From a virus, in IMG/VR virus record IMGVR_UViG_3300045977_000165, positions 1 to 40,198 of that record: a DNA stretch of 40,198 bases. One strand, 5' to 3'. Below the pieces are notes generated by a model. That model was not told the origin of the DNA. It searched no databases and saw nothing but the letters and a program-made list of their open reading frames with translations. This document shows, one piece after another, positions 5,638 to 40,198 of this stretch. Each line of letters starts with the position of its first letter. Position 1 is the first letter of the stretch. Made by a program: the position numbers and the translations under genes.

Positions 5638-8069
5638 TGTCTTTCGGCTCCGTTGAACTCAACCCCGGCACCGGGGGATCCAAAGTCGCGGCGGATATCG
5701 TCACGGAAGGCGGAGAGCCGCGCGAATTCCAGCGGATCAAGCTGGTTTGGGGCCCGGAGAGCACGATCACCCCGGTCGACGTCGGGGCGAACGCGCTTCC
5801 GGTGCAGGACGGCGGCAACTCGCTCACGGTAGACACGCCGCAACTGCCGGCCGCGCTCGTGAGCGGGCGGCTCGACGTGAACATCGGCTCGGGCGTCTCG
5901 GGGACAGAATACACGGAGGATGCTGCGGCACCTGCGAACCCGACTGCTCCGGCTGTGATTGTCGTGCGCGACGACGCCCGAGCGGGTGGGCTCACGAGCG
6001 CCGACGGCGACAACGTCGCGCTCCGCGGCACTAACGCTGGCGAGCTCTACGTCAAGCACTTCGATTCTGTTCGCGTGCAAGGCATGGCCGGCGTCGACGC
6101 GGCGCTGTCCGGGAACCCGGTGACCGTCGGCGGGCGCGCTTCGACGGCATCCCCCACGGCCGTCAGCGCCGATGATGAATCGCAGGTCGTTTGGATGAGC
6201 CGACGCGGCGCCGTCCACGTTGCTTTGCGTGACGACGACGGCGATTCCGCGATGGACAACACGCTCGCCGCGGTTCGCGTGACGCAAGTCGCCGCCGCCG
6301 GCACGTCGCTCGCGGACAACACGGCGAACCCGACGGCGCCCTATGTTGGATCGTTCCCTCACTGGTTCGACGGCGCGACGTGGGATCGCGCTCGCGGTGA
6401 TTCCGCCGGGGGCGCGTTCGTCCAAGGCCCGGCGGCGATCGACGCGGTTGTTGCCGGTAACCCGATCATAGCCGGAGCGCGCGCGTCGACGGCCACGCCC
6501 TCGGTGGTCTCGGCTGACGGCGACGTCCAGTCCATTTGGATCGATCGCGTGGGGCGCGTGAAGATCGACTTGAGCACGGCGACGGTGACGATCCCGGTTC
6601 AGGGCAATGCGGCGCACGATGCCGCCGCGAGCTCGTTCGGTAATCCGTTTCTTACGGCGGGGCGCGCCTCGGACGCGGTCCCCTCGGCGGTCTCGGCGGA
6701 CGGGGACATCTCCTATACCTGGCTCGATCGCCGCGGCGCCACCATGGCACGGCTCGTCGATTCGGCGGGTGATTCGGCGATGGACGACACGAACAACTCC
6801 GTTCGAGTCTCGATCGTCTCCGGCAGCGTTTCTGTCAGCGGGACCGTCGATACGGAACTCCCCGCGGCCGGGGCACTTTCCGACGACATGGCGAACCCGA
6901 CGACGCCACTGGTTGGTTCGTGCCTCATGGTTTATGACGGCAACTGGGACCGTGCTGTCGGGACGAGCGGGAGGCTCGCAGTACAAGGAGCCATTGGGAA
7001 CGATGGCGCCCTTGGGTCCTTCAATCCAATCAACGTATCAGGCCGAGCGAGCTCTACGGCGCCGGCCGATGTGAGCGCGAACGATGACGCGGTTTACTTT
7101 TGGCTCACCCGTAAAGGCGCACTGAACGTTTCGCTCCGGGATTCCGCCGGTGACTCGGCGATGGATGACACCAACAACGCGGTTTGGATTAACCCCGTGG
7201 CGGGCTCCCTAATCGGCGTCGTGGGCGTGACGCCGCACGATGGCGCGATGGGCGGAACGCCGGTAGCCGTTTCGGCTTACGCGAGCGACGCCGCTACTAC
7301 GCCCGTTTCAGCGGATGGCGACGCGACGTACGTTTGGGCGAATCGGCGCGGAGCTTTGCAGGTGGGCATTCGCGATGGGTCCGGCGATTCGTGCATGGAC
7401 GACACGAACAACGCGCTACGCGTGAACGTGATCAACCTCGTCGACGAATACGTCGAAGATGCCGCGGCGCCGGCGAACCCCGAGGGTCCGGCGATGATGC
7501 TCCGTCGGCGCGACACGCCCTCGACGAGCGAGGTGAGCGCCGATCTGGACTGGGTCACGGCGAACGGGAATTCCGCCGGTGGGATGTACGTCGAGGTTTT
7601 GGCGGGCGCCACGAAGCTAGGGAACGCGTCGGGGCTCACCGTGCAGGGCGCCGCGGCAACCGATGCGGCGGTCGCCGGGAACCCGCTTTACGTCGGCGGA
7701 CGCGCGTCGGCGGCGGAACCCACGGCGGTGTCGGCGGATGGTGACGCGGTTCCGGAATGGCGTGATCTCAAGGGTCGCGCGATCGTTACGATGCAGTGCG
7801 GAACGTGCTCGTTTGGGTCTGTGTCGGACACGACGACGAGCGCCACGCTCATCTCGGCGAACACGGCACGCAAGGGCGCGACGGTGACGAACACGAGCAC
7901 GGCGGACCTCTACATCAAGTGCGGCTCCACGGCTTCGGCCACGTCGCACAACGCGATCGTGAAGGCCGGCGGGACGTGGGAATGTCCGTTTGGTTACACG
8001 GGCATCATCACTGGCGTGTGGGCGACCGACCCGAACACGGGCGCCGCAAACACGGGGGAGTTCACGTAA
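5637..8069 (+). CDS. Repeat-containing tail or head fibre protein, 810 aa
   Basis: The central part contains about six degenerate copies of a module of about 55-75 residues. Each has the pattern 'G-RAS---P--VSADGD----W--RRGA', usually followed by 'GDSAMDDTNNAVRV'. Copies start near residues 165, 280, 340, 468, 546 and 686. The last 110 residues (from about GSVSDTTTSATLISANTARK) resemble a beta-sandwich common at the end of phage fibres, with 'N-S---LYIKCGS-AS' and 'PFGYTGIITGVW'. I infer a trimeric fibre involved in surface recognition. The start is GTG at 5637, overlapping the preceding TAG. The stop TAA overlaps the ATG of the glycine-rich tip gene. Confidence 0.85.
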   Translation: MSFGSVELNPGTGGSKVAADIVTEGGEPREFQRIKLVWGPESTITPVDVGANALPVQDGGNSLTVDTPQLPAALVSGRLDVNIGSGVSGTEYTEDAAAPANPTAPAVIVVRDDARAGGLTSADGDNVALRGTNAGELYVKHFDSVRVQGMAGVDAALSGNPVTVGGRASTASPTAVSADDESQVVWMSRRGAVHVALRDDDGDSAMDNTLAAVRVTQVAAAGTSLADNTANPTAPYVGSFPHWFDGATWDRARGDSAGGAFVQGPAAIDAVVAGNPIIAGARASTATPSVVSADGDVQSIWIDRVGRVKIDLSTATVTIPVQGNAAHDAAASSFGNPFLTAGRASDAVPSAVSADGDISYTWLDRRGATMARLVDSAGDSAMDDTNNSVRVSIVSGSVSVSGTVDTELPAAGALSDDMANPTTPLVGSCLMVYDGNWDRAVGTSGRLAVQGAIGNDGALGSFNPINVSGRASSTAPADVSANDDAVYFWLTRKGALNVSLRDSAGDSAMDDTNNAVWINPVAGSLIGVVGVTPHDGAMGGTPVAVSAYASDAATTPVSADGDATYVWANRRGALQVGIRDGSGDSCMDDTNNALRVNVINLVDEYVEDAAAPANPEGPAMMLRRRDTPSTSEVSADLDWVTANGNSAGGMYVEVLAGATKLGNASGLTVQGAAATDAAVAGNPLYVGGRASAAEPTAVSADGDAVPEWRDLKGRAIVTMQCGTCSFGSVSDTTTSATLISANTARKGATVTNTSTADLYIKCGSTASATSHNAIVKAGGTWECPFGYTGIITGVWATDPNTGAANTGEFT

Positions 8070-17960: not shown

Positions 17961-18193
17961 CGGACGCCGAGCTGCGCGCTCATCTCATTGCCGCTGGCGC
18001 CTTGCGTCCGGCCGGGGCTCGGGTGCGCGTGGGCGTGGTATCGATGGACCACGCCGGGAAGCGTTCGGCGGCGGCTGATATCTTCTTCGGCGAAGGGCCC
18101 GAGATGGCGCAATTCGTCGTCGAAAACCCGAACGCCGACCCGGAAGTGAAAGTGATCTTGCGGCGCTGGCTTGCCCGCCGGGAGGCGGCGTGA
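17957..18193 (+). CDS. Small early protein of unknown function, 78 aa
   Basis: It starts at GTG 17957 (GTGA overlap). The N-terminal helix TDAELRAHLIAAGALRPAG is followed by a beta strand with VRVGVVSMDH and an acidic helical end. No known domain is seen. Its end overlaps the start of the excisionase-like gene (GTGA), whose ribosome-binding GGAGG lies at 18181-18185 inside this gene. Confidence 0.72.
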   Translation: MTDAELRAHLIAAGALRPAGARVRVGVVSMDHAGKRSAAADIFFGEGPEMAQFVVENPNADPEVKVILRRWLARREAA

Positions 18194-18543
18194 GCGATGC
18201 CCTCGACTGCCTCACCCCTGCCGACGTCGTTGCGTACCTGCAGTGCGGAAACCGCGAGGCTTGCGCGCTCATGCGCGAGCTCGGCGGGTGGCGCTGGAAA
18301 GACTCTTGGCGGATCAGAAAGGCGACCTTCGAAGCATGGCTAAAAAAGCAAGAGACGGTCTCTTTAGACGCGGCGGCGTCTGGTGGATTCGAACCGACCC
18401 GATCGAACGCAAAGCCAAAACCACCGGGTGCCGTGATCTTGCGGCTGCCCGTGGGTACCGCGCGGAGCGCGAACGCCTCGCGAAAGATCCGACATACGCA
18501 GCCGCGCAGGCGGAAAACCTCCAAGCAGCCTGCAATCGGTTGA
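18190..18543 (+). CDS. Excisionase-like winged-helix protein, 117 aa, overlapping int
   Basis: Residues 8-55 fit the MerR/Xis-like HTH_17 pattern: CLTPADVVAYLQCGNREACA, then a helix, a W-containing wing, and the closing I-KATFEAWLKKQ. These small proteins bend attachment-site DNA and steer the integrase towards excision. The frame continues 62 residues past the domain, 208 bases into the integrase gene in another frame. That tail is basic and low-complexity and may be incidental. The start GTG at 18190 has GGAGG five bases upstream. Confidence 0.7.
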   Translation: MSDALDCLTPADVVAYLQCGNREACALMRELGGWRWKDSWRIRKATFEAWLKKQETVSLDAAASGGFEPTRSNAKPKPPGAVILRLPVGTARSANASRKIRHTQPRRRKTSKQPAIG

Positions 18544-19622
18544 GCGAGACGCGTGCCGGGCTCGGGAAGTCGAGCGAGTACCACGAGACGAAGCTCGGGC
18601 ACTGGCTGCGCCTGTTCGGGGACGACGCTGCGCTCGCGCGTGTGGGGAGCCCCGAAGGCTTCGACGAGTACGTGCGGCAGCGACGGACCGAGGAAGCGTC
18701 AGACCACACGATCACGAAGGAAGTGAGCGTCATGCTCACGGTGCTACGGATGGCGAAGCGCGTCGGGCGGTACACGGGAGATCTCGAGGTGCTTCGACCC
18801 TTCGACCTTTCCGCCGGCTACGTGCCACGGACGCGGGCACTCACGGCTGCCGAGCTCGGGGCATTGCTCGGTGAGCTCGCCCCGGAGCGGGGCGCCTTCG
18901 TGGCGTTGTGCGTCGGGCTCGGCGTCCGGAAGGGCGAGGCGTTCGGGTTGCTGCCGGAGCACGTCGACGTCGAGGCTGGGCTCGTCCACGTCGCCGGCAC
19001 GAAGACTGCCGGCGCTCGGCGCACCCTGCCGATTCTTCCCCCGTTCCGTGGGCTCGTGGCGGCGGCAGCGGCACACCTGCCGTTGAAGCCGTGGTCACGC
19101 GGAAACTACCTGCGCGACCTGAAAGCGGCGTGCACGCGTGCGAAGATCGACCCCTGCACCCCGAACGACCTTCGTCGGACGCACGCGACCTTACTCCGGA
19201 ACGCCGGGGTAGATCGCGACGTCGTGCGTGGGCTGCTCGGTCACACGGCCGAGTCGGTCATGCTCGAGGCGGTGTACGACGCGCCGAAACCGCACGAGCT
19301 CGCAGCTCGAGCGGGTGAACTTGTAACAATGACGCGACAGCTCGAGGAGGCGATCGGCGAAAAGCTGAGTGGGCGGGCGGGGTTTCGAACCCCGGACATC
19401 CGGCTTGTAAGGCCCAACCAGAACGAGCACGACGAGGAGTCTCGTGCACTTACGACGCCGAGTGAGGACGGGCAAGGTCAGAGCGAGGCGGCGGACGTAA
19501 CAGAGACGCGACACTCGGCGGCGGCGCACGCGCTCGCGCTCGCAGCCGAAGGGGTGCTGAACCGCCGCGTGTTCATGGTACCGGGGGTCCGGTACCGCGG
19601 GAAGGCGGCGCGCCGTGCGTAA
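18336..19622 (+). CDS. int: Tyrosine integrase with attP inside its 3' end, 428 aa
   Basis: The catalytic core runs from about residue 155 to 330. R198 lies in VRKGEAFGL, a Lys candidate in GTKTAGARRT, R280 in NDLRRTHATLL, H303 in LLGHTAES, and the nucleophile Y314 in LEAVYDAP. The first His of the usual HxxR is replaced by N277. The N-terminal 150 residues contain the SAM-like core-binding domain and probably arm-binding strands. Residues about 346-361 are encoded by a tRNA-derived segment, and the last 65 residues are low-complexity. The ATG at 18336 lies inside the excisionase-like frame. It mediates insertion at a tRNA-Val gene. Confidence 0.88.
   Translation: MAKKARDGLFRRGGVWWIRTDPIERKAKTTGCRDLAAARGYRAERERLAKDPTYAAAQAENLQAACNRLSETRAGLGKSSEYHETKLGHWLRLFGDDAALARVGSPEGFDEYVRQRRTEEASDHTITKEVSVMLTVLRMAKRVGRYTGDLEVLRPFDLSAGYVPRTRALTAAELGALLGELAPERGAFVALCVGLGVRKGEAFGLLPEHVDVEAGLVHVAGTKTAGARRTLPILPPFRGLVAAAAAHLPLKPWSRGNYLRDLKAACTRAKIDPCTPNDLRRTHATLLRNAGVDRDVVRGLLGHTAESVMLEAVYDAPKPHELAARAGELVTMTRQLEEAIGEKLSGRAGFRTPDIRLVRPNQNEHDEESRALTTPSEDGQGQSEAADVTETRHSAAAHALALAAEGVLNRRVFMVPGVRYRGKAARRA
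19371..19416 (-). other. attP: Probable attP core: 3' part of a tRNA-Val(TAC) gene
   Basis: On the minus strand this segment reads as the anticodon loop (CTTACAA, anticodon TAC), the 3' anticodon strand, the variable loop, a perfect T-arm (CGGGG-TTCGAAA-CCCCG) and the 3' acceptor strand CCCGCCC with discriminator A. The 5' half of a tRNA is absent: the anticodon stem loses pairing at its outer end, and no GGGCGGG acceptor strand lies at the expected place. That is the signature of a phage attachment core, which restores the host tRNA after insertion. It lies entirely inside the int coding sequence. CCA is not encoded here. Confidence 0.8.
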
Positions 19623-20304: not shown

Positions 20305-20769
20305 ATGGCATCGAAGATCAACGACGTAAAGATCGAACGGGTTACCCGGAAGCTCCGCGTGGAGCTCACGACCGAAGAGGTGGCGAAGCGTGCCGACCGG
20401 TGCGCGCATCTCGTGGCAGAACGCTCCTCGAAAAAGGAGGCGCAGAAGAGCGCGACCGCGCACGCGAACGCGGAGATCAAGCAGCTCGACGCGGAGCTTT
20501 CGTCGCTCTCGAACGAGGTGCGGGATAAGGCGAAGTACTCCGACGTCGACTGCGAGCGCCGGTACAACTACCGGCTCGGGCGCGTCGAGGAGGTTCGGCT
20601 CGACACCAAGGCGGTGGTGAGCGAACGCGCCATGACGGGCGCCGAGCGGCAGCTCGAAAACGGGCTGAAGGAGCCGAAGGGAAAGAAGGGCGACGAGAAG
20701 GAGCCCGAGCTCCCGACGCGCAAGAAGAGCGGACGCAAAAAGGCCGGCGCTGCCGAGGTGTCGCCGTGA
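20305..20769 (+). CDS. Coiled-coil early protein, 154 aa
   Basis: Residues about 18-75 form a long amphipathic helix (VELTTEEVAKRADRCAHLVA, onward to KQLDAELSSLSNEVRDKAK). A beta segment with RRYNYRLGRVEEVRLDT follows. The last 40 residues are Lys/Glu-rich and disordered. The ATG at 20305 has GGAAAGGAA upstream. No family is recognised. The layout is like small phage proteins of replication clusters. Confidence 0.75.
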   Translation: MASKINDVKIERVTRKLRVELTTEEVAKRADRCAHLVAERSSKKEAQKSATAHANAEIKQLDAELSSLSNEVRDKAKYSDVDCERRYNYRLGRVEEVRLDTKAVVSERAMTGAERQLENGLKEPKGKKGDEKEPELPTRKKSGRKKAGAAEVSP

Positions 20770-21461
20770 GCACGCCGCAGATTGACGAGGCTCGCCTCGA
20801 GCGGATCAACAAGCGCGAGCTGCGTTCTGGATCGCACCCCGCGCCTCCGAACGGCACGGTCGAAGCGTGCGTCATGGAGGCAGTCGCCTACGTCGCGGGC
20901 GAGACGTGGAGCGACCATCCGACGTGCGCGTGCCCCGTGCTCGCGGCGTTCATGCGGGCTTGGAACGATGGGCTGCCATCGGACGCCGACCGAACGCGCT
21001 TGCTTCGGCCGCTGATTCCGAAGCTCGTCGGGTCGAAGTCGACGCCTGAAGTCGAGCGGCGCCGCGCTGACATGGCGGCGGATTGGTTCATACGCGTTTA
21101 CACCCCGACATGGCTCGGGATGGTGGACGGGCTCAAACCCGAGGCGGAAAAGCTTCGCGCGCTCGCGCCGCTTTCCGACCGCGCTTCTTTCGAAGCGGCG
21201 GTGCCCGTCGTGAAAGAAGCACAGAGATCGAGTGCCGCCGCGAGGGACGCCGCGAGGGACGCCGCGAGGGACGCCGCGAGGGACGCCGCGTGGGCCGCCG
21301 CGTGGGACGCCGCGAGTGCCGCCGCGAGTGCCGCCGCGAGGGACGCCGCGAGTGCCGCCGCGAAAAAGAAGTTCGAGCCCATTACGCTCGATCTCCAACA
21401 GTCGGCGCTCGAGCTCGTGGACCGCATGCTCGCCATCACTCCCGAAACGCTTGCGGCCTGA
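20766..21461 (+). CDS. Early protein with an Ala-Ala-Arg-Asp tetrapeptide tandem repeat, 231 aa
   Basis: Residues 1-155 appear folded and helical, with conserved-looking Cys-rich (HPTCACPVLAAF) and Trp-rich parts. Residues about 158-197 consist of ten tetrapeptides AARD, AAWA, AAWD or AASA, encoded by a 12-bp tandem DNA repeat. A helical end follows. Such Ala-rich tetrad repeats occur in uncharacterised phage and bacterial proteins. They would form a long helix whose length varies by slippage. No function is assigned. Confidence 0.78.
   Translation: MSTPQIDEARLERINKRELRSGSHPAPPNGTVEACVMEAVAYVAGETWSDHPTCACPVLAAFMRAWNDGLPSDADRTRLLRPLIPKLVGSKSTPEVERRRADMAADWFIRVYTPTWLGMVDGLKPEAEKLRALAPLSDRASFEAAVPVVKEAQRSSAAARDAARDAARDAARDAAWAAAWDAASAAASAAARDAASAAAKKKFEPITLDLQQSALELVDRMLAITPETLAA
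21237..21356 (+). repeat. Ten-unit 12-bp tandem repeat inside a gene
   Basis: The unit is GCCGCGAGGGAC with variants GCCGCGTGGGCC, GCCGCGTGGGAC and GCCGCGAGTGCC. The first four units are identical, which points to recent expansion. A length that is a multiple of three keeps the frame after slippage. The peptide is a periodic Ala-rich helix. Confidence 0.95.
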
Positions 21462-26068: not shown

Positions 26069-26257
26069 ATGACCGGGCTTGCCCGTCCTGCGCGGTGGAT
26101 GCGGCCCCCGAGCGGCTCGCTGGTGGACTACCAGTCGGCGCCCGAGCGCAAGCGGCCCCGGGTGGAAGCGGCGTCAGAGGGGCGCGGGTTTCGCAATCCG
26201 GGGCGGCGAGCGGTGCGCGACGCGGAGCGAGCACGCGAGCGGAGGATCTGGCCGTGA
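26069..26257 (+). CDS. Small Arg-rich protein at the start of the packaging operon, 62 aa
   Basis: The start ATG 26069 is followed by a Pro/Arg-rich sequence (WMRPPSGSLVDYQSAPERKR), ending in a basic helix (RRAVRDAERARERRIWP). The TGA overlaps the GTG start of the next gene (GTGA), and that gene's ribosome-binding site lies inside this one, which supports translation. A DNA-binding role in packaging is only a guess. Confidence 0.5.
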   Translation: MTGLARPARWMRPPSGSLVDYQSAPERKRPRVEAASEGRGFRNPGRRAVRDAERARERRIWP

Positions 26258-27147
26258 CCGGCGCGCGCTTCTTTGCGAAGCAGAACGAGCGGCGGCGCGA
26301 AGCGGGCTTGCGCGAGATGCGCGAGCGACGAGCGGCGGCGCGGCTTCTCTGCGAGGCGTGCACGCTGCCGGGCACCGAGTCGCTCACGATCGGATTGCTC
26401 GAGGCGCGACCATGCGACGTGTGCGGCGTCCTCGTCTCGCCGGAGGACAATTACACGTTCCTGCGGGGAGCGTTGGACGCAGGCGGGGCCCATACCCCTG
26501 CCGCACCCGGTTCGAATCCGGGCCCCGCGACCACGGCGAAGGTGTACACGGGCGACGCGGCATCGCTCACGCGCGACAAGCGGCCCTGGTACGACTACGG
26601 GAAAGACACGGGGCGGCGGCTGCGCGTGAAGGGACTCGTCGACGTCGATTCGCTGCCCGTGGCGAAGCCCGAGCCCGACCCGAACGGGCCGGACCCGCGC
26701 GAGGTGGAGGCGCTGCACCGGCAGAGCCAGGAGGCGATGGCCGAGGGCGACGACCGGAAGCTCGGCAAGCTCTACGAAGACTTGCTCGACGCGCTCCATT
26801 CGAACGATCTGCCGACGGACGAGGACCCGATCACGAAGGCGCGCTTTGACCTTCGTGCTCGCGAGCTCGAGGCGGCGCTCGGTGCAGAGCTTTCCGAGCT
26901 CGGGCGGGCCCGGCGGTGGGGCGTCGGGTACCGGCTTTCGGGCGCGTCTGGGCAAGTCGTGCTCGTGGTCGGAGTGCTCGACCGCGCGAGCGGTGCCGAG
27001 TGGCAGATCACGGTGGATCAGCGGGCGCTTTACAACGCAGTGAGGCGTGCCGGGGCAGAGATGCGGATGGCCGCGCGCGAGATCGCGACTCGCGTGCGTG
27101 ACCACGTCGACAAGGCGCGAGCAGGAGCAGTCATCGGGGTTGCGTGA
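26254..27147 (+). CDS. Zinc-ribbon protein of the packaging operon, small-terminase candidate, 297 aa (may be two genes)
   Basis: GTG 26254 has GGAGGA seven bases upstream. The N-terminus is a basic helix followed by two CxxC pairs, C33/C36 and C54/C57, a probable zinc ribbon. Residues about 70-94 are low-complexity because the DNA also forms a tRNA-like structure. After that comes a distinct region (KVYTGDAASLTRDKRPWYDYG onward) with long helices and a beta part near residues 225-260. No stop separates the halves. If the tRNA is real, the second half may be a separate gene starting at GTG 26542. Its place two genes before the large terminase makes a DNA-recognition role in packaging plausible. 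Confidence 0.65.
   Translation: MTGARFFAKQNERRREAGLREMRERRAAARLLCEACTLPGTESLTIGLLEARPCDVCGVLVSPEDNYTFLRGALDAGGAHTPAAPGSNPGPATTAKVYTGDAASLTRDKRPWYDYGKDTGRRLRVKGLVDVDSLPVAKPEPDPNGPDPREVEALHRQSQEAMAEGDDRKLGKLYEDLLDALHSNDLPTDEDPITKARFDLRARELEAALGAELSELGRARRWGVGYRLSGASGQVVLVVGVLDRASGAEWQITVDQRALYNAVRRAGAEMRMAAREIATRVRDHVDKARAGAVIGVA
26462..26533 (+). tRNA. Divergent tRNA-Met-like gene (anticodon CAT) with encoded CCA, inside an open frame
   Basis: A cloverleaf can be drawn. The acceptor TGCGGGG pairs with CCCCGCG (one G-U). A three-pair D-stem GCG/CGC has loop TTGGA. The anticodon stem is CGGGG/CCCTG (one G-U) with loop CCCATAC, anticodon CAT. The variable loop is CCGCA, the T-arm is perfect (CCCGG-TTCGAAT-CCGGG), discriminator A, then CCA. 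Odd points are the short D-arm, A at position 8 and C at position 33 in place of U. It could be a working phage tRNA, a tRNA-like packaging or RNA signal, or a decayed tRNA. Confidence 0.5.
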
Positions 27148-27443
27148 GAAAACGCCGGTGCGATCGGTACGCGGAGGAGAAGCGGCGCTTCGGAGTGAAC
27201 GAAGCGCTGAACGCGCTTCCGCCGGATCCGCACGACGACTCGCGGCTCGATCGCGCGCTCACGCTCGGGCTTCGCGGCGAGAATTCGGGGTACCACGGGT
27301 GCAACTGGTGCCACGGTCTGCCGCACCGGCGGAACGATCCGAAGTGTCGCGGGTGCGGTGAGCCGTACGCGCCGGAAGTCGTGGCGCTCGAGGTGCCTGC
27401 GCTCCGAAGCAGCTACCCGCACGAGGAGATCCACGGGTGCTAA
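27144..27443 (+). CDS. Four-cysteine zinc-finger protein before the large terminase, 99 aa
   Basis: C53/C56 (CNWCHG) and C68/C71 (CRGCG) form a probable zinc site. The first 45 residues are basic and helical. It overlaps the genes on both sides (GTGA at the start, seven bases at the end), so it is translated with the large terminase. Small zinc proteins are often encoded near terminases. A DNA-binding role is inferred. Confidence 0.78.
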   Translation: MRKRRCDRYAEEKRRFGVNEALNALPPDPHDDSRLDRALTLGLRGENSGYHGCNWCHGLPHRRNDPKCRGCGEPYAPEVVALEVPALRSSYPHEEIHGC

Positions 27444-28954
27444 CCGAGGAGCTTCTAACCTCGTCGGAGGCGTACGGGCTCAAGACGGCGACGCCGGTGC
27501 AGAGGATGATCTGCCGCGTCGCCGACGGGAAGCCGCTCGGGGCGCTGTGGAACGAGCCGGAGGTGCAGAAGGCGCTCGGCGGGGCGAAGCCGCCGGAGAA
27601 GGTGCCGCGGCTGCTCGTGGTGCTTGCGGCGATTCGCGGGGCGAAGAGCACGATCATGGCGTGTCGCGGGGCGCGGGCGGCGCTCTCGTGCGACGTCGAC
27701 GCGCTGTCGCCCGGCGATGAGCTGCTCGTGCCGCTCGTCGCGACCGAGAAGAAAACGGCGCAGCAGCTTTACGCGCACGCGATGGCGCTTTTTCGCACGC
27801 CCGCGCTTCGGGGGCGCGTCGTGAGGGAGACGGCCGAAGGGCTTTGGGCGCGGCACGATTCGGGGCGACCGGTCGAGATCTCAGTGATGGCCATGTCGCG
27901 CTCGGGCTCGACGCTCACGGCGCGATGGGTGGCCACGGCGGGATTCGATGAGGCGCCGCGCATGATCGGCTCGAGCGAGGGCGTGCGAAACCTCGACGAC
28001 TCCATGAACGCGCTCGAGGGGCGCGTGCGCGACGACGGGCTCGTGTTTTGGATCGGCTCGCCGTGGGCGCCGTGGGGTCCGGTGTACGACGTGACGCGGG
28101 ACCGCTTCGGGCGACCGGCCGAAGACGTCGTCGTGATTCGGGCGACGGGGCCGATGCTAAACCCGCAGTATTGGACGCCGGAGCGTTGCGCGCAGCTCGA
28201 GCGGTTCAAGCCTTCGGCGTACCGCATGAACGTGCTCGGCGAGTTCGCCGACGCGGACGAGGCGATGATTCCGAGCGAGTCGGTGATGCGCGCGATCGAG
28301 CGCAGCGTCACCGAGCGGCCCCGGCGCAAGGGCGTCGAGTACGTCGCGGCAATGGATCCGGCGACGCGCGGGAACGCGTGGACGCTCGTCGTACTCGGCA
28401 ACGTCGGGAAGAACGCTCACGGGGAAGCACAGTACGAGGTGGCCGTGGCCGAGGAGTGGCGCGGGAACCCGGGCACGCCGCTTCGGCCGCGCGCGGTGCT
28501 CGAGGAGATCCGCGGCATCTGTTCACGCTACGGCGTGACGACGGTGCTCACCGATCAGGCCGCGCTCGACGCGTACGCCGATATCGGGGATTCGGTGGGG
28601 ATCGGAGTCGCCGGCATGCACGTGCTAGCGGACGATCGTTGGGAGATGTGCGAGCTCGTGCGGCTTGTGCTCGTCGAGGAGCGGCTTTCGTTGCTCGACG
28701 TGACGAACCTTCGCGCGGACCTGTTGCGCGTGGAGAAGCGTCCGACGCCGAAGGGCTCGACGATCCGCTACCCGACGAGCGGCGACGGCCGGCACTGCGA
28801 CTTCGTTCCGGCGCTCGGGCTTTGCATGAAGTTTCCGCCGGGGGCGCCCCGGGATCCGAACGAGCCCGAGAAGGGCCCGCCGCGCAAGCGCGCGACGACT
28901 GCACGACCGCGCACGTACGACACGGGCGCGCTCGTGCGGCAACTGACGAGGTGA
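27437..28954 (+). CDS. terL: Terminase large subunit, 505 aa
   Basis: The packaging ATPase has a variant Walker A, AAIRGAKST (about 64-72), Walker B with the catalytic acid in TAGFDEAPRMIG (D171/E172), and the coupling motif WIGSPW (about 206-210). The C-terminal RNase H-like nuclease has D307 in YVAAMDPATRG, D373 in VLTDQAALD, and a late Asp in HCDFVPALG. It pumps DNA into the prohead and cuts it. The start is GTG 27437, preceded by GAGGAG. Replacement of the usual GxxxxGKS by an A-x-R-G-A-K-S form is seen in several terminases. Confidence 0.88.
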   Translation: MLTEELLTSSEAYGLKTATPVQRMICRVADGKPLGALWNEPEVQKALGGAKPPEKVPRLLVVLAAIRGAKSTIMACRGARAALSCDVDALSPGDELLVPLVATEKKTAQQLYAHAMALFRTPALRGRVVRETAEGLWARHDSGRPVEISVMAMSRSGSTLTARWVATAGFDEAPRMIGSSEGVRNLDDSMNALEGRVRDDGLVFWIGSPWAPWGPVYDVTRDRFGRPAEDVVVIRATGPMLNPQYWTPERCAQLERFKPSAYRMNVLGEFADADEAMIPSESVMRAIERSVTERPRRKGVEYVAAMDPATRGNAWTLVVLGNVGKNAHGEAQYEVAVAEEWRGNPGTPLRPRAVLEEIRGICSRYGVTTVLTDQAALDAYADIGDSVGIGVAGMHVLADDRWEMCELVRLVLVEERLSLLDVTNLRADLLRVEKRPTPKGSTIRYPTSGDGRHCDFVPALGLCMKFPPGAPRDPNEPEKGPPRKRATTARPRTYDTGALVRQLTR

Positions 28955-28957
28955 GCC

Positions 28958-29209
28958 ATGGACGTCGACGAAACCCTAACCCTGCTGCGAAAACACGGTG
29001 TCGCGTCGGCGACGTTCGACGGCGGCGGGTGCCTGCTGTCGGTGCAGTTTGCCTATGTCTCGCCACCGTCGCCCGAGGGCGCGACGCCGAAAGCGGGATC
29101 GATCGAAGAGGACGGGCCGCCGCTTTTCCGCACGGCGATGCACACGGCGGCGAGCGTTCTGCAGGGAAAGCTCACGAGCATGAGGGGCGAGGAGACGGCC
29201 GATGCTTGA
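28958..29209 (+). CDS. Small protein between terminase and portal, 83 aa
   Basis: GAGGTGAGCC precedes the ATG. The N-terminal 40 residues are alpha/beta (DETLTLLRKHGVASATFDGG), followed by a Pro-rich linker and a helical end. It overlaps the portal start by eight bases. No family is recognised. Head assembly is its likely setting. Confidence 0.75.
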   Translation: MDVDETLTLLRKHGVASATFDGGGCLLSVQFAYVSPPSPEGATPKAGSIEEDGPPLFRTAMHTAASVLQGKLTSMRGEETADA

Positions 29210-31139
29210 AAACGCGTGGTGGACGCAAAAGGATCCGAGAGACCTGGCGATTCGCGCGCGCGAATTCGCCGACGCGCTGCACAAGCGGCAGCACTTCGAG
29301 CGCCGAGCACGTGCCGAGGCGGCTCTTTTCCTCTACGGCGGTTCGACGCGGCTTTCGCTGTCGGGCGCGTCGTGGGAGCAGGGCTTGAGCGACGAGGACG
29401 TGCCTCCGTTCTTCAACCTGATCCAAACGGCGGTGGATTGGTTCACGTCGATGATGGTCCGGAACCGGATCCGGCCGTACTTCTTGACCGAGGCCGGGGA
29501 CAACGAGCTGCAGGAGAAAGCGCGTTGCGCGGGGCGTGCCGTCGAGGGGCTCATGCGGCAGCTCGGCGTCTGGGACGAGCTCGGCATGCTGCGTTGTCAG
29601 GACGGGCACCTATTCGAAGCGGGCGGAATCAAGTACGCGGCGGACTTCACGAATCGAAGGATCGTCGCGTCGCGTGTGCGCCCATGGGAGTTCTACGTTC
29701 CCGAGCGCGAGGCGCGTCTCGGCGTCCCGCGGCAATTCGTCCACGATCAGAACCCCGAGCGCAGCGTGCTCGCGTCGATGTTCGAGCCCGAGTCGGAGGA
29801 GTGGCAGGCCGTGATGGACGCGGAGCCCGAGCAGATCGACCCCGTCGAAAACGTGCCGGGCGACCATTCCGATCTCGTCCGTGCCTCCGAGCTCTGGCAC
29901 CTGCCGAGCGTGAAAGTCGATCTGAAAAACCCCGCGGCGTGGGGGCTCGACGATAACGGCGAACCCGATCCGGAAGTCGATCCGGGGCACGACGGCAAGC
30001 GGGTGATCGTGACGCGCGCGGGGCTGCTCGTCGCGGAGCCGTGGCCGCTCGATTACATCCCGGTCTCTTGGTACAAGCCGCGGCGCGACCCGGTGGGCTT
30101 TTGGTCGCGATCCATTCCCGAGACGCTCGCGGGGGCGCAGCTCGAGATCATGGACATCGCGCAGAAGATCCAGAGCATCATGCGCCGGCACGCGGTACCG
30201 CACCTCGTCGTTTGGAAGCAGGCGAATCTAAACCTGCAGAACGTGACGAACGACCACGCGGCCATTCTCGAAAGCTCTGTGCCGGCCGGGCAGGCCGCGT
30301 ACTACCTCACCCCGCAGGCCGTGCCGAGCGAGCTCTTCGCGCGCGAGGAGTCGATCATTCGGTGGGCCGAGAAGCAGCTCGGCGTGTCCGAGATGAGCCT
30401 CGCCGGCGTGAAGCCGCCGAGCATCGAGCACGCACCGGGTATGGAGCATCTCGCCGAGATGGAGATGATTCGGCACACGGCGGCTTTTCACTCGTTCGAG
30501 CGCACGCACCTCGACGACGCACGGATCATTGTTGATCTCTTGCGAATGCTCGCGCAGCGCGACGACGACATGGAGGTGGTTTTCGGCGAGTCGAAGCAGC
30601 TCGAGCGGTTCAAGATCAAAGACTTCGACATGGAGCGCGAGCAATACCACCTGAAAACGTGGCCGACGAACCTCTTCGCGCAGACGCCCACGGCGAAGTT
30701 CCGCCAGGTCAAGGAATTCCACGCGGCCGGGCTCTTCGCGAACACGCCCGAGGCGCGCGCGGCGCGCCGTGCGATGGGAACGCCGGACGTCGAGGAGATC
30801 AGCGGCGATATGGAAGCCGAGCAAGACAACATCGAGGAGCGGCTGCGCCTCGCGATTCAGGGTGCACCGGATTACCAGTGGATCCCGACGCCCGACATGG
30901 ACCTCGCGCTCGCCAAAACCAAGGCAAAGGCGCGAATCAATCGGCTCGAGGCAGAGCACGAAGAACCCGAAGCGATCGACCGCGTGCGGACTTTCTGGAA
31001 GCTCGCAGATCGCCTCGAAAAACAAGCAATGGCCGAGCAGGTGCAGGCGCAAGAGGGAGTCGCACCCGACGCGGCTCCACCCGAACCGCCGATCCCGCCC
31101 GAGCCGACGTTACCTAACGCCCCACCGATGGCCGCATAG
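29202..31139 (+). CDS. Portal protein (head-tail connector), 645 aa
   Basis: Position after the large terminase and before scaffold and capsid, size, and internal features all fit the portal of short-tailed phages. The N-terminal part has FFNLIQTAVDWFTSMMVRNR and the later RPWEFYVPERE. A central helical part has PETLAGAQLEIMDIAQKIQS. A long C-terminal helical region with IDRVRTFWKLADRLEKQ and a Pro/Ala tail follows. It forms the dodecameric DNA channel. The family match is by pattern, not by alignment. Confidence 0.85.
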   Translation: MLENAWWTQKDPRDLAIRAREFADALHKRQHFERRARAEAALFLYGGSTRLSLSGASWEQGLSDEDVPPFFNLIQTAVDWFTSMMVRNRIRPYFLTEAGDNELQEKARCAGRAVEGLMRQLGVWDELGMLRCQDGHLFEAGGIKYAADFTNRRIVASRVRPWEFYVPEREARLGVPRQFVHDQNPERSVLASMFEPESEEWQAVMDAEPEQIDPVENVPGDHSDLVRASELWHLPSVKVDLKNPAAWGLDDNGEPDPEVDPGHDGKRVIVTRAGLLVAEPWPLDYIPVSWYKPRRDPVGFWSRSIPETLAGAQLEIMDIAQKIQSIMRRHAVPHLVVWKQANLNLQNVTNDHAAILESSVPAGQAAYYLTPQAVPSELFAREESIIRWAEKQLGVSEMSLAGVKPPSIEHAPGMEHLAEMEMIRHTAAFHSFERTHLDDARIIVDLLRMLAQRDDDMEVVFGESKQLERFKIKDFDMEREQYHLKTWPTNLFAQTPTAKFRQVKEFHAAGLFANTPEARAARRAMGTPDVEEISGDMEAEQDNIEERLRLAIQGAPDYQWIPTPDMDLALAKTKAKARINRLEAEHEEPEAIDRVRTFWKLADRLEKQAMAEQVQAQEGVAPDAAPPEPPIPPEPTLPNAPPMAA

Positions 31140-32416: not shown

Positions 32417-33670
32417 ATGGCATCAGCGAGCAATACCGCGAACGTAAGCCTACTCCGCAGGCTGTTCGGGAACGACATGGCGGACATGCGGTGGAAGAAA
32501 GATCCGTATCTCCGCGACGTGAAGAAAGACACGAGCGGGTTCGGAGAAGGGCGCTACACCGTAGTGAGGATCGGGCAGACGACCGGTATCGCCGGCTCGT
32601 TCACCGAGGCGCTCAACAACCAAAACCCGACCGCCGAACGGCGCTTTTTCGTGACGGACCGCACGATCTATGCGGTTTTCAGCATGAAAGGCTCGTTTTT
32701 GCGCAAGGCGCGGGGCAAGCCGAATTCGCTGCTGAAAGGCTACGAATCGCAGGCGCGTTCTGCCATGTACGACTTCGACACCGTGCTCGCGGACGCGGCA
32801 TGGAACGACGTCGGTGGGTCGAAGGGCCAGATCAGCGCGTCGCAAAACCTGGCGTCGAACGTTCTGACGTTCCGAAACGCGAAGGCGCTTTTCGGAATGA
32901 ACTGGCTCGGCAAGAAAATCACGTTCGCTTCGGATAGCGGCGCGGGTACCTCGCCGGCGGGTGAGCGTGGCGTTGCGGGCGTCCCGACGACGCTCACCGT
33001 TACCGGTGTGAACCATTCGGCGAACACGCTCACTCTGAGCGCAGCGCTGAACACGGTGCCGGGAATCACGGTCAACGACTTCATCTTTGTGGCCGGTTTC
33101 TACGCGGTGTCCCTCACGGGAAAGCGCGGCTGGAACCCGATCACGGCCCCGACGGGTGGTGACTCGCACTTCGGCGTCGATCGCACGGAAGCGGTCGAGC
33201 AGCTGTCGGGCTGGCGCCAACCGTCGGCAGGTCTCCGTGAGCACACGTTGATCGAGGCGATGACCCTCGGCGACATGGCGAACACCGAGACGGCGCGTTG
33301 CTACACCAACGGCGTCGACTGGAAGGAGATCGTCAAGGAAGTCGGTTCCAAGTACGTGCGCGAGGTGAACGTCGGAAAGCAGGGCATCGGCGCGAAGGGC
33401 CTCGCGGTGTTTGCACCGCAGGGCGAGTGCATGGTGCTCGCGACGAACCGCGTTCCCGTCGGGAATGCGTGGGTCGGTGACCCGGCGCAGGACGTGCTTC
33501 GGAGCGAGGGAGAGATCCCGCAGATCCTGAACGAGGACAAGGTGGGGCCGATGCTGCGATCGGCTTCCGACGACGCTTACCAGAGCCGGCTCGGTGGCGA
33601 CGCGAACTTCATGCCGGACGACACGGCGAACAAGCTCGGGCCCGGCGCCTGGGTGATCGTTACATGGTGA
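32417..33670 (+). CDS. Major capsid protein, 417 aa
   Basis: Place after the scaffold, length and composition fit an HK97-fold capsid protein of the T7/P22 type. The N-arm has DPYLRDVKKDTSGFGEGRYT, alternating strands follow, and late segments include AQDVLRSEGEIPQILNEDKV and the final strand PGAWVIVTW. There is no upstream protease gene, so no processing is expected. The ATG at 32417 lacks a good ribosome-binding site, and an in-frame ATG at 32477 is possible. The 59 bases upstream hold no gene. Confidence 0.85.
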   Translation: MASASNTANVSLLRRLFGNDMADMRWKKDPYLRDVKKDTSGFGEGRYTVVRIGQTTGIAGSFTEALNNQNPTAERRFFVTDRTIYAVFSMKGSFLRKARGKPNSLLKGYESQARSAMYDFDTVLADAAWNDVGGSKGQISASQNLASNVLTFRNAKALFGMNWLGKKITFASDSGAGTSPAGERGVAGVPTTLTVTGVNHSANTLTLSAALNTVPGITVNDFIFVAGFYAVSLTGKRGWNPITAPTGGDSHFGVDRTEAVEQLSGWRQPSAGLREHTLIEAMTLGDMANTETARCYTNGVDWKEIVKEVGSKYVREVNVGKQGIGAKGLAVFAPQGECMVLATNRVPVGNAWVGDPAQDVLRSEGEIPQILNEDKVGPMLRSASDDAYQSRLGGDANFMPDDTANKLGPGAWVIVTW

Positions 33671-39070: not shown

Positions 39071-40083
39071 TGTCGATCTTCGGTGACATCGGCTCATGGA
39101 TGAATTCGGAGACCAAGCCGAAGCACGGCAAGTTCAAGGTGCCGGGGAGCCCGGAGCTGGACTCGAACATGTACCAGCTCGGACAAGATCCGAACTGGCT
39201 CGCAAACTTCAGCCAACGGAACGCCGGTACGCACGCGGACGCCGGCAAGATGCTCGGCTATGGGCAGGAGCTCACGGGTGCCGCACGCGGTGTTCAGGGT
39301 CGCGCGACCCCCGGAACGAACTTCGGGCGCTCGCAGGCGTTCGGTGGGCAGCAGGTCGGCGCCGCGAATTGGCTGCAGGACTTCGCGCAGGGACCGCAGG
39401 GGCCGAGTGCAGCGCAGGCGCAGCTGCAGGAGGGCGCGAACCAGTCGATGCAGCAGAGTCTCGCGCTCGCGCGCGCCGGTGGGGGCTTCGGCGAAAGCGC
39501 GAACTCGCTCGGTGAGGCGCAGCGCGCGAACGCAAACACGATGGCGGCAGCCGCAAACGACGCGGCGCAGCTACGAGCGACCGAGGATCAGGCGTTTCGG
39601 CAGCAACAGCTCGGGGCGATGGGTACGGCGGCCGATATCTTCGGAGCCACGGCGGAACGCGAGGGTGGTCAATCCCAGTTTCTCACCGATGCAGAGCTGC
39701 AGGCGCAGGCGCAGCGCGACGCGCAGGAGCTCGGGCTCGGGGCGCAGAGCATCGAGGCGATGGACCGCGGCATTCAGGGTCAACTCGGAACGGCGGGCGT
39801 CGATCTCGACGCGGCAAACGCGGGGATGCAGGGGCAGATCGCTCGCGGTGACCAGGCGTTGCAGCAGTACGAATTGAATCTAGAACGCTGGAAAGAACGG
39901 CTGCGCCGCGACGAAGCAATGCGGGAAGCCCGACGTGCAGATCGTGGAGAGGTGCTCGGCGGCGTCGGCCAGGTGGCGGGCTCAATTGTGGGCATGATGA
40001 GCGACCGCCGCTCGAAGCGGCGCGTGCGGAACGTGAGTGCCGATCTCGATGACACGTATGCGGCGTTGGAAGGGAGAGACTAG
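39070..40083 (+). CDS. Glutamine/alanine-rich virion protein, probable internal protein, 337 aa
   Basis: Most of the protein is helical and rich in Ala, Gln and Gly (SAAQAQLQEGANQSMQQSLA, ADIFGATAEREGG). A short hydrophobic stretch (GGVGQVAGSIVGMM) occurs near residues 298-312, followed by the C-terminal motif MMSDRRSKRRV and DDTYAALEGRD. This closing motif is shared with the next gene (15-827). The position after the nozzle gene suggests an ejection protein. Its stop lies within the ribosome-binding region of the next gene, across the circle junction. Confidence 0.82.
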   Translation: MSIFGDIGSWMNSETKPKHGKFKVPGSPELDSNMYQLGQDPNWLANFSQRNAGTHADAGKMLGYGQELTGAARGVQGRATPGTNFGRSQAFGGQQVGAANWLQDFAQGPQGPSAAQAQLQEGANQSMQQSLALARAGGGFGESANSLGEAQRANANTMAAAANDAAQLRATEDQAFRQQQLGAMGTAADIFGATAEREGGQSQFLTDAELQAQAQRDAQELGLGAQSIEAMDRGIQGQLGTAGVDLDAANAGMQGQIARGDQALQQYELNLERWKERLRRDEAMREARRADRGEVLGGVGQVAGSIVGMMSDRRSKRRVRNVSADLDDTYAALEGRD

Positions 40084-40198
40084 CGATGTTCTACGGCAAC
40101 AGGGATCCTCGAATGATGGGAAACATGATGGGGAAGTCGGCGCAGATGGCGCCGGCCAGCCGCGGGACGCCTCAAAAGTCGCCCATGGGCGCCGTTGC
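40072..40198 (+). repeat. Right copy of the 127-bp terminal direct repeat, with partial gene start
   Basis: Identical to 1-127. It contains the first 113 bases (from ATG 40086) of the gene annotated in full at 15-827, so the open frame at the edge is not a separate gene. Confidence 0.95.

Follow-up and report, generated by a model that had tools for sequence, protein, structure and literature searches.

A tRNA-Met-like sequence with an encoded CCA end lies within an open reading frame of the viral record IMGVR_UViG_3300045977_000165, which was analyzed over its whole length of 40,198 bp (the window), and the question it raises is whether DNA that is read as protein can also serve the virus as a tRNA. 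The record has a 127-bp exact terminal direct repeat (1-127 and 40072-40198), as would suit a phage genome that is complete and either circular or terminally redundant. Its genes include those for a tyrosine integrase (PF00589), a DnaB helicase and a Sak4-like annealing protein, and most of its other proteins match nothing. Tandem direct repeats with an Ala-Ala-Arg-Asp-type run were also observed at 21229-21363, within the gene at 20766-21461. The surroundings of the tRNA-like element were initially annotated as a packaging operon, which is plausible in view of the large open reading frames and the capsid-like gene downstream, although no terminase profile match was obtained. With respect to the gene that carries the element, profile searches of its protein returned no family match, and no relatives of this gene or of its neighbors were found beyond a near-identical twin contig. 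The features of the locus are as follows.

26254-27147, plus strand: host gene of 297 aa with a GTG start, open through the tRNA, with same-frame codon periodicity on both sides.
26462-26533, plus strand: compact initiator-type tRNA-Met(CAT), 72 nt, CCA encoded (ARAGORN; held-out covariance model, 84.6 bits, E = 1.5e-18).
26462-26468, plus strand: acceptor 5' strand UGCGGGG, partner 26523-26529, first pair U1:G72 (direct reading, fold, covariation of helix 1).
26469-26480, plus strand: single linker A8 (26469) and mini D-arm of GCGU (26470-26473), triloop UGG (26474-26476) and ACGC (26477-26480) (direct reading, D-stem covariation).
26482-26502, plus strand: 7-bp anticodon stem GGCGGGG/CCCUGCC with loop CCCAUAC; CAT at 26491-26493, C33 at 26490, C38 at 26495 (ARAGORN, fold, anatomy).
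26506-26522, plus strand: T-arm CCCGG-TTCGAAT-CCGGG, preceded by the 3-nt variable region GCA (26503-26505) (anatomy; helix 4 is 98.9% paired in relatives).
26523-26533, plus strand: acceptor 3' strand CCCCGCG, discriminator A73 and encoded CCA (direct reading, anatomy).
27437-28954, plus strand: 505-aa gene whose resemblance to a terminase lies in position and motifs only, with no profile match.
29202-31139: large open reading frame downstream of the element.
32417-33670, plus strand: major-capsid-like protein, homologous to a region of contigs L152 and L100 (tblastn E = 8e-10 and 1.7e-9).

The sole ARAGORN call in the window is a tRNA-Met at 26462-26533 on the plus strand with the anticodon CAT at position 30, and these are the same 72 bases in which a fold with a seven-pair acceptor, CAT, T-arm and CCA had been seen by eye in the initial annotation. 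Two of its details were refined. The anticodon stem, described there as five pairs, extends to 7 bp with one G:U, and the D-arm, described as shortened, is indeed short yet regular, with a 4-bp stem and an NGG triloop. A lengthened anticodon stem compensates for a shortened D-domain. In DNA letters the 5' half reads TGCGGGG, A, GCGT-TGG-ACGC, A and GGCGGGG-CCCATAC-CCCTGCC. Every stem is complete, the only non-Watson-Crick pairs being U1:G72 and the one anticodon-stem G:U, and the predicted free energy is -38.5 kcal/mol. While the 7-bp acceptor, 5-bp T-stem and 7-nt anticodon and T loops are those of the ordinary cloverleaf, A8 alone and a 3-nt D-loop stand in place of two linkers (U8, N9) and a D-loop of at least 7 nt.

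An ARAGORN call alone is weakly significant, because three sets of 100 shuffled or simulated 40-kb windows gave 2, 6 and 3 calls, and the decision on the element therefore had to rest on relatives. The Rfam tRNA model RF00005 gave no match to the element at or above its cut-off (29 bits), and in the 201-bp neighborhood the tRNA clan gave sub-threshold tRNA-Sec-like matches only (13.8-14.5 bits).

Relatives were sought by scanning viral contigs with two patterns. The first required C33 in an anticodon arm and a T-loop after it. It matched at least 120 stretches of viral sequence, and of the matches listed nearly all resemble tRNA-Met; most of them are canonical in plan, and a subset shares the 71-73 nt compact plan of the window. 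U33 is nearly universal in tRNAs, and the C33 of the element had been likened to that of eukaryotic initiator tRNAs; the base is present, but these viral stretches show that it is not specifically eukaryotic. Initiator-type tRNA-Met genes with C33 are frequent among phages (viral contigs L013-L131). The second pattern covered the compact 5' half only (acceptor G2, C3 and G5; A8; GG in the D-loop; anticodon arm; C or T33), and nearly all of the 30 stretches that it matched supply a matching T-arm and 3' acceptor strand, both of which lie outside the pattern. The two scans yielded about 20 distinct compact relatives on contigs of 37-70% G+C, a breadth which is a lower bound, since members were found by sequence patterns. 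The class has A8 as sole linker, a 4-bp D-stem with an NGG triloop, GGG:CCC in a 6-7 bp anticodon stem, a loop with C or U33 and a variable region usually of 3 nt, conservation of the anticodon arm, A8 and the D-loop GG being built in by the search pattern.

A consensus query of named phages found no compact initiator. Other tRNA-like sequences were observed there: an unannotated, odd tRNA-Tyr-like sequence with A8 in Microbacterium phage Jovita (OP434439.1; L159:127-199), immediately before the first genes and the gene for the terminase small subunit, and a weak match (18.9 bits) in Escherichia phage HK75 (L160:1165-1229), between tR' and holin in the lambdoid late leader, which has a perfect T-arm and no ARAGORN call.

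A covariance model of the class was built from an 18-member alignment (A1) from which the window sequence was left out. Run on the window with filters off, it gave the element 84.6 bits and the next best match 15.6 bits. RF00005 misses nearly all compact members tested (L157 passes, with 35.1 bits), and gives canonical C33 relatives 55-63 bits. A very low covariance score had been named in advance as evidence against a tRNA; the score is low with the generic model and strong with the class-specific one, and because RF00005 misses most of the compact class, the low generic score does not refute a tRNA. Confidence is high that the element is real and a member of the compact class.

Covariation was analyzed in the same 18 members, the window again excluded. 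In this alignment 91.8% of cells are paired, and two-sided changes occur at 16 pairs (99 such cells), giving a covariation score of 0.612 versus 0.058-0.145 for controls whose partners were slid by 1-3 columns. Covarying pairs lie in all four helices, all four pairs of the mini D-stem show compensated changes, and most varying pairs lie outside the search pattern; TGCGGGG/CCCCGCG, CGCAGGG/CCCTGCA, TGCGGGC/GCCCGCT and CGCAGCC/GGCTGCA are examples of acceptors. The closest relative of the window is a 14-kb contig which shares 10.8 kb with two mismatches (99.98% identical) and carries an identical element. As this sole close relative is uninformative, the compensatory changes, which the initial annotation had proposed to look for in related phages, are seen across a class of unrelated phages and not within this phage lineage.

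The element also carries sequence hallmarks of an initiator tRNA. It has the CAT anticodon and three G:C pairs next to the loop (GGGG-CCCATAC-CCCT). In bacteria, formylation depends mainly on position 1:72 not forming a strong pair. None of 19 distinct compact members has G:C or C:G there (T:T in 5, C:A in 3, T:A in 3, and others), and the position is in neither search pattern, whereas GGG:CCC and CAT are both fixed by pattern. Bacterial initiators usually have a purine:pyrimidine pair at 11:24, but the second D-stem pair is C:G in the window and mixed across the class. The element lacks U8 and the second linker base that canonical tRNAs have, and it has C33 where they have U33. Members mostly have A73 and usually CCA, which is commonly encoded in bacterial initiator genes (PMC5143459); some end in ACCG, ACCC or ACTA, so that CCA is not always encoded. 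Confidence that the element functions as an initiator tRNA is moderate.

That the frame continues through the tRNA had been noted at the outset, and the codon usage on both flanks bears this out. The sequence GGAGGA (26241-26246) lies 7 nt upstream of the GTG start of the host gene, the protein has an N-terminal CxxC...CxxC, and its residues 70-94 (LRGALDAGGAHTPAAPGSNPGPATT) come from the tRNA region. By codon position, G+C is.68/.54/.87 before the element (69 codons) and.77/.48/.85 after it (203 codons), all in one frame. Inside the element it is.76/.80/.72, a pattern to be expected where the bases are dictated by an RNA rather than by a protein. A single-sequence structure model of the host protein is too uncertain to interpret (mean pLDDT 53), the tRNA-encoded stretch being among its lowest-scoring residues.

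Embedding of this kind is recurrent. At least four unrelated genes, the window's included, carry a compact tRNA in frame and always in the same register, which gives the peptide GAH(N/T/I)P...GS(N/T/I)P.PA. The genes outside the window are as follows.

L072, L100, L151 and L152: 337-aa gene upstream of a capsid-like gene, compact tRNA in frame, coding signal on both sides.
L153: a second low-complexity, scaffold-like gene, compact tRNA in frame, coding signal on both sides.
L155: gene of at least 2,787 codons, compact tRNA in frame, coding signal on both sides.

When one relaxed criterion was applied throughout, 5 of the 22 distinct compact members were embedded versus 0-2 weak cases among 92 canonical relatives (Fisher 0.0002 to 0.003, with members that are not fully independent); with strict thresholds only L155 was scored. 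None of the 92 canonical relatives gave a convincing in-frame case. The 337-aa gene was compared between L100 (to which L072 is identical across the tRNA) and L152, two contigs whose capsid protein is distantly related to that of the window. In this comparison 17 nt differ in the 42 codons before the tRNA, 3 in the 25 codons within it and 66 in the 268 codons after it. The three tRNA differences fall in the D-loop, at an unpaired stem-end position and in the variable region, none of them in formed pairs; paired bases would be spared in this way by chance with a probability of about 0.02. To test for gain or loss, tRNA-free relatives of the L152 gene were sought; the same four contigs came back and no others, and named phages yielded none. 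L024 has an ATG immediately before its tRNA, from which a gene might begin with tRNA-encoded residues. In Mesorhizobium phage vB_MseS-P1 (L012, PP232116.1), a canonical initiator-type tRNA-Met that is not annotated was also observed at 6210-6284, inside the annotated CDS gp13 (5861-6361) and in the same register (VAGSNPAPATT).

The reading we favor, with a probability of about 0.68, is that the phage has a minimal initiator tRNA that works, lies within a translated gene and is freed from the mRNA of that gene. A working unusual tRNA was among the options raised initially and is the best supported of them, all four stems being kept by compensation in unrelated phages. The analysis establishes the structure, the family, the covariation, the sequence hallmarks of an initiator and the overlap with coding sequence, whereas processing, charging, formylation and use in initiation are inferences. 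The same 75 bases, just upstream of the presumed packaging genes, would encode a tRNA as well as a flexible linker peptide. Most likely, host RNase P and 3' maturation enzymes would cut some of the polycistronic transcripts to give a tRNA with a ready-made CCA, which host MetRS would charge and which the formylase would be expected to accept (no G:C at 1:72). The charged tRNA would sustain phage translation initiation, either as a general supplement or in place of a host initiator tRNA that defence enzymes attack, and uncut transcripts would yield the 297-aa protein. A counterpoint to the working-tRNA reading is that an mRNA-borne tRNA would have to be excised at that mRNA's expense.

The element might instead be a tRNA mimic with no role in initiation. 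It would then affect the mRNA that carries it, for example as a switch for RNase P cleavage or decay between upstream and downstream genes, or it would bind tRNA enzymes. In-frame placement would suit an element carried in mRNA, head or packaging genes lie close to several members, and some relatives lack an encoded CCA. We nevertheless regard a mimic as unlikely, as free-standing members exist, some of them beside ordinary tRNA genes (L137, L138, L149), and as the initiator-specific features that are kept (1:72, CAT and, in most, A73) would be needless for mere cleavage. The initial suggestion of a signal near the terminase genes is unsupported as a general rule, several compact members being near head genes and others beside other tRNA genes or elsewhere.

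It is quite improbable, and already strongly disfavored, that an initiator tRNA was captured from host or phage, turned coding and is now decaying. The low-complexity linker in which the element lies, its atypical D-arm, C33 and C38, and the failure of generic models to find it would all fit decay, but it contains no broken pair, unrelated members share the compact D-arm with compensatory changes, and the changes between L100 and L152 avoid formed pairs. Because compensatory changes preserve four stems in unrelated phages, the element is neither chance nor a decayed capture; what stands of the earlier option of a tRNA captured in coding DNA is the location within coding sequence, which is recurrent and probably functional.

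Integrases often use tRNA genes, and given the tyrosine integrase of this phage the element could be an attachment-site copy of a host tRNA. This is very improbable, since the element lies 7 kb from int, its compact D-arm is common to unrelated phages, and a better att candidate is found inside the integrase gene itself. The candidate is a tRNA-Val(TAC)-like 3' half (CTTACAAGCCGGATGTC-CGGGGTTCGAAACCCCG-CCCGCCCA) at about 19370-19419 on the minus strand, at the 3' end of the integrase ORF (18171-19622). It is likely an attP within int, an arrangement described for myxophage Mx8 (PMC6070905). Bacterial genomes gave no match to it, whether exact or relaxed, and the 28-nt 3' end of the element was found, among viral contigs, in the near-identical twin contig only. 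Lastly, a chance cloverleaf arising in G+C-rich coding DNA, for which the 2-6 ARAGORN calls per 100 shuffled or simulated windows might speak, was rejected on the held-out model E-value of 1.5e-18.

A broader proposal can be put forward tentatively. It may represent an undescribed class of minimal phage initiator tRNAs, converging on the architecture of mt-tRNASer and tRNAPyl and lying in frame in structural and other genes, whose altered loop and D-arm would sustain initiation when defences cleave or modify the host initiator; we consider this possible rather than probable. No report of a compact phage initiator class was found in the open-access literature, subscription journals lying outside the scope of the search. 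Passages of eLife 85183 (PMC10264068) relate that VapC toxins cleave tRNA-fMet, that phage tRNAs with altered anticodon loops are proposed to evade host tRNases and that, in enteric cases, phages generally avoid encoding tRNA-fMet; a compact initiator is not described in these passages. Like those proposed tRNase-evading tRNAs, the element is phage-encoded and has a changed anticodon loop. Its C33 and C38 would fit evasion of host tRNases without proving it, and a counter-defence role is suggested with low confidence.

The element bears on why phages carry initiator tRNAs, because host toxins such as VapC attack precisely that tRNA. Mini-D-arm tRNAs, for which mitochondria and the pyrrolysine system have been the main known sources, also occur as initiator-type tRNAs in bacterial viruses, and the standard tRNA model overlooks most of these compact forms. 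The element is a piece of dual-use DNA that has to meet the demands of protein coding and of tRNA folding together, and it would provide a natural test of how little tRNA bacterial initiation needs.

Canonical bacterial and phage tRNA-fMet, including the C33 phage versions, has in common with the element CAT, GGG:CCC, a non-G:C 1:72 pair, A73-CCA and a TTCGA T-loop. The canonical form has about 74-78 nt and two linker bases, whereas the element has 72 nt, A8 alone, a 3-nt D-loop, the 6-7 bp anticodon stem of its class and a position in frame inside a gene. By published descriptions, its 1-nt linker, small D-loop, anticodon stem of more than 5 bp and 3-nt variable region place it with mt-tRNASer(UCN) and tRNAPyl, a topology which folds as an L and works in translation (PMC7609411); that review of non-canonical natural tRNAs mentions neither phage nor initiator. 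Mammalian mt-tRNASer(UCN), of atypical type I, likewise has a single base from acceptor to D-stem, a small D-loop with GG, a lengthened anticodon stem and a 3-nt variable region, and retains G18G19 and the TPsiC loop (PMC7609411). It is of another isotype and genome, while the element has an anticodon stem of up to 7 bp and initiator identity. The tRNAPyl of Methanosarcina and Desulfitobacterium shares the one linker base, small D-loop and 3-nt variable region, and its 6-bp anticodon stem is lengthened as in the element (PMC7609411, PMC11764691). Unlike the element, tRNAPyl is an elongator and CUA suppressor with G1:C72 and G73, and in Methanosarcina it lacks the G18G19 and U54-Psi55-C56 motifs.
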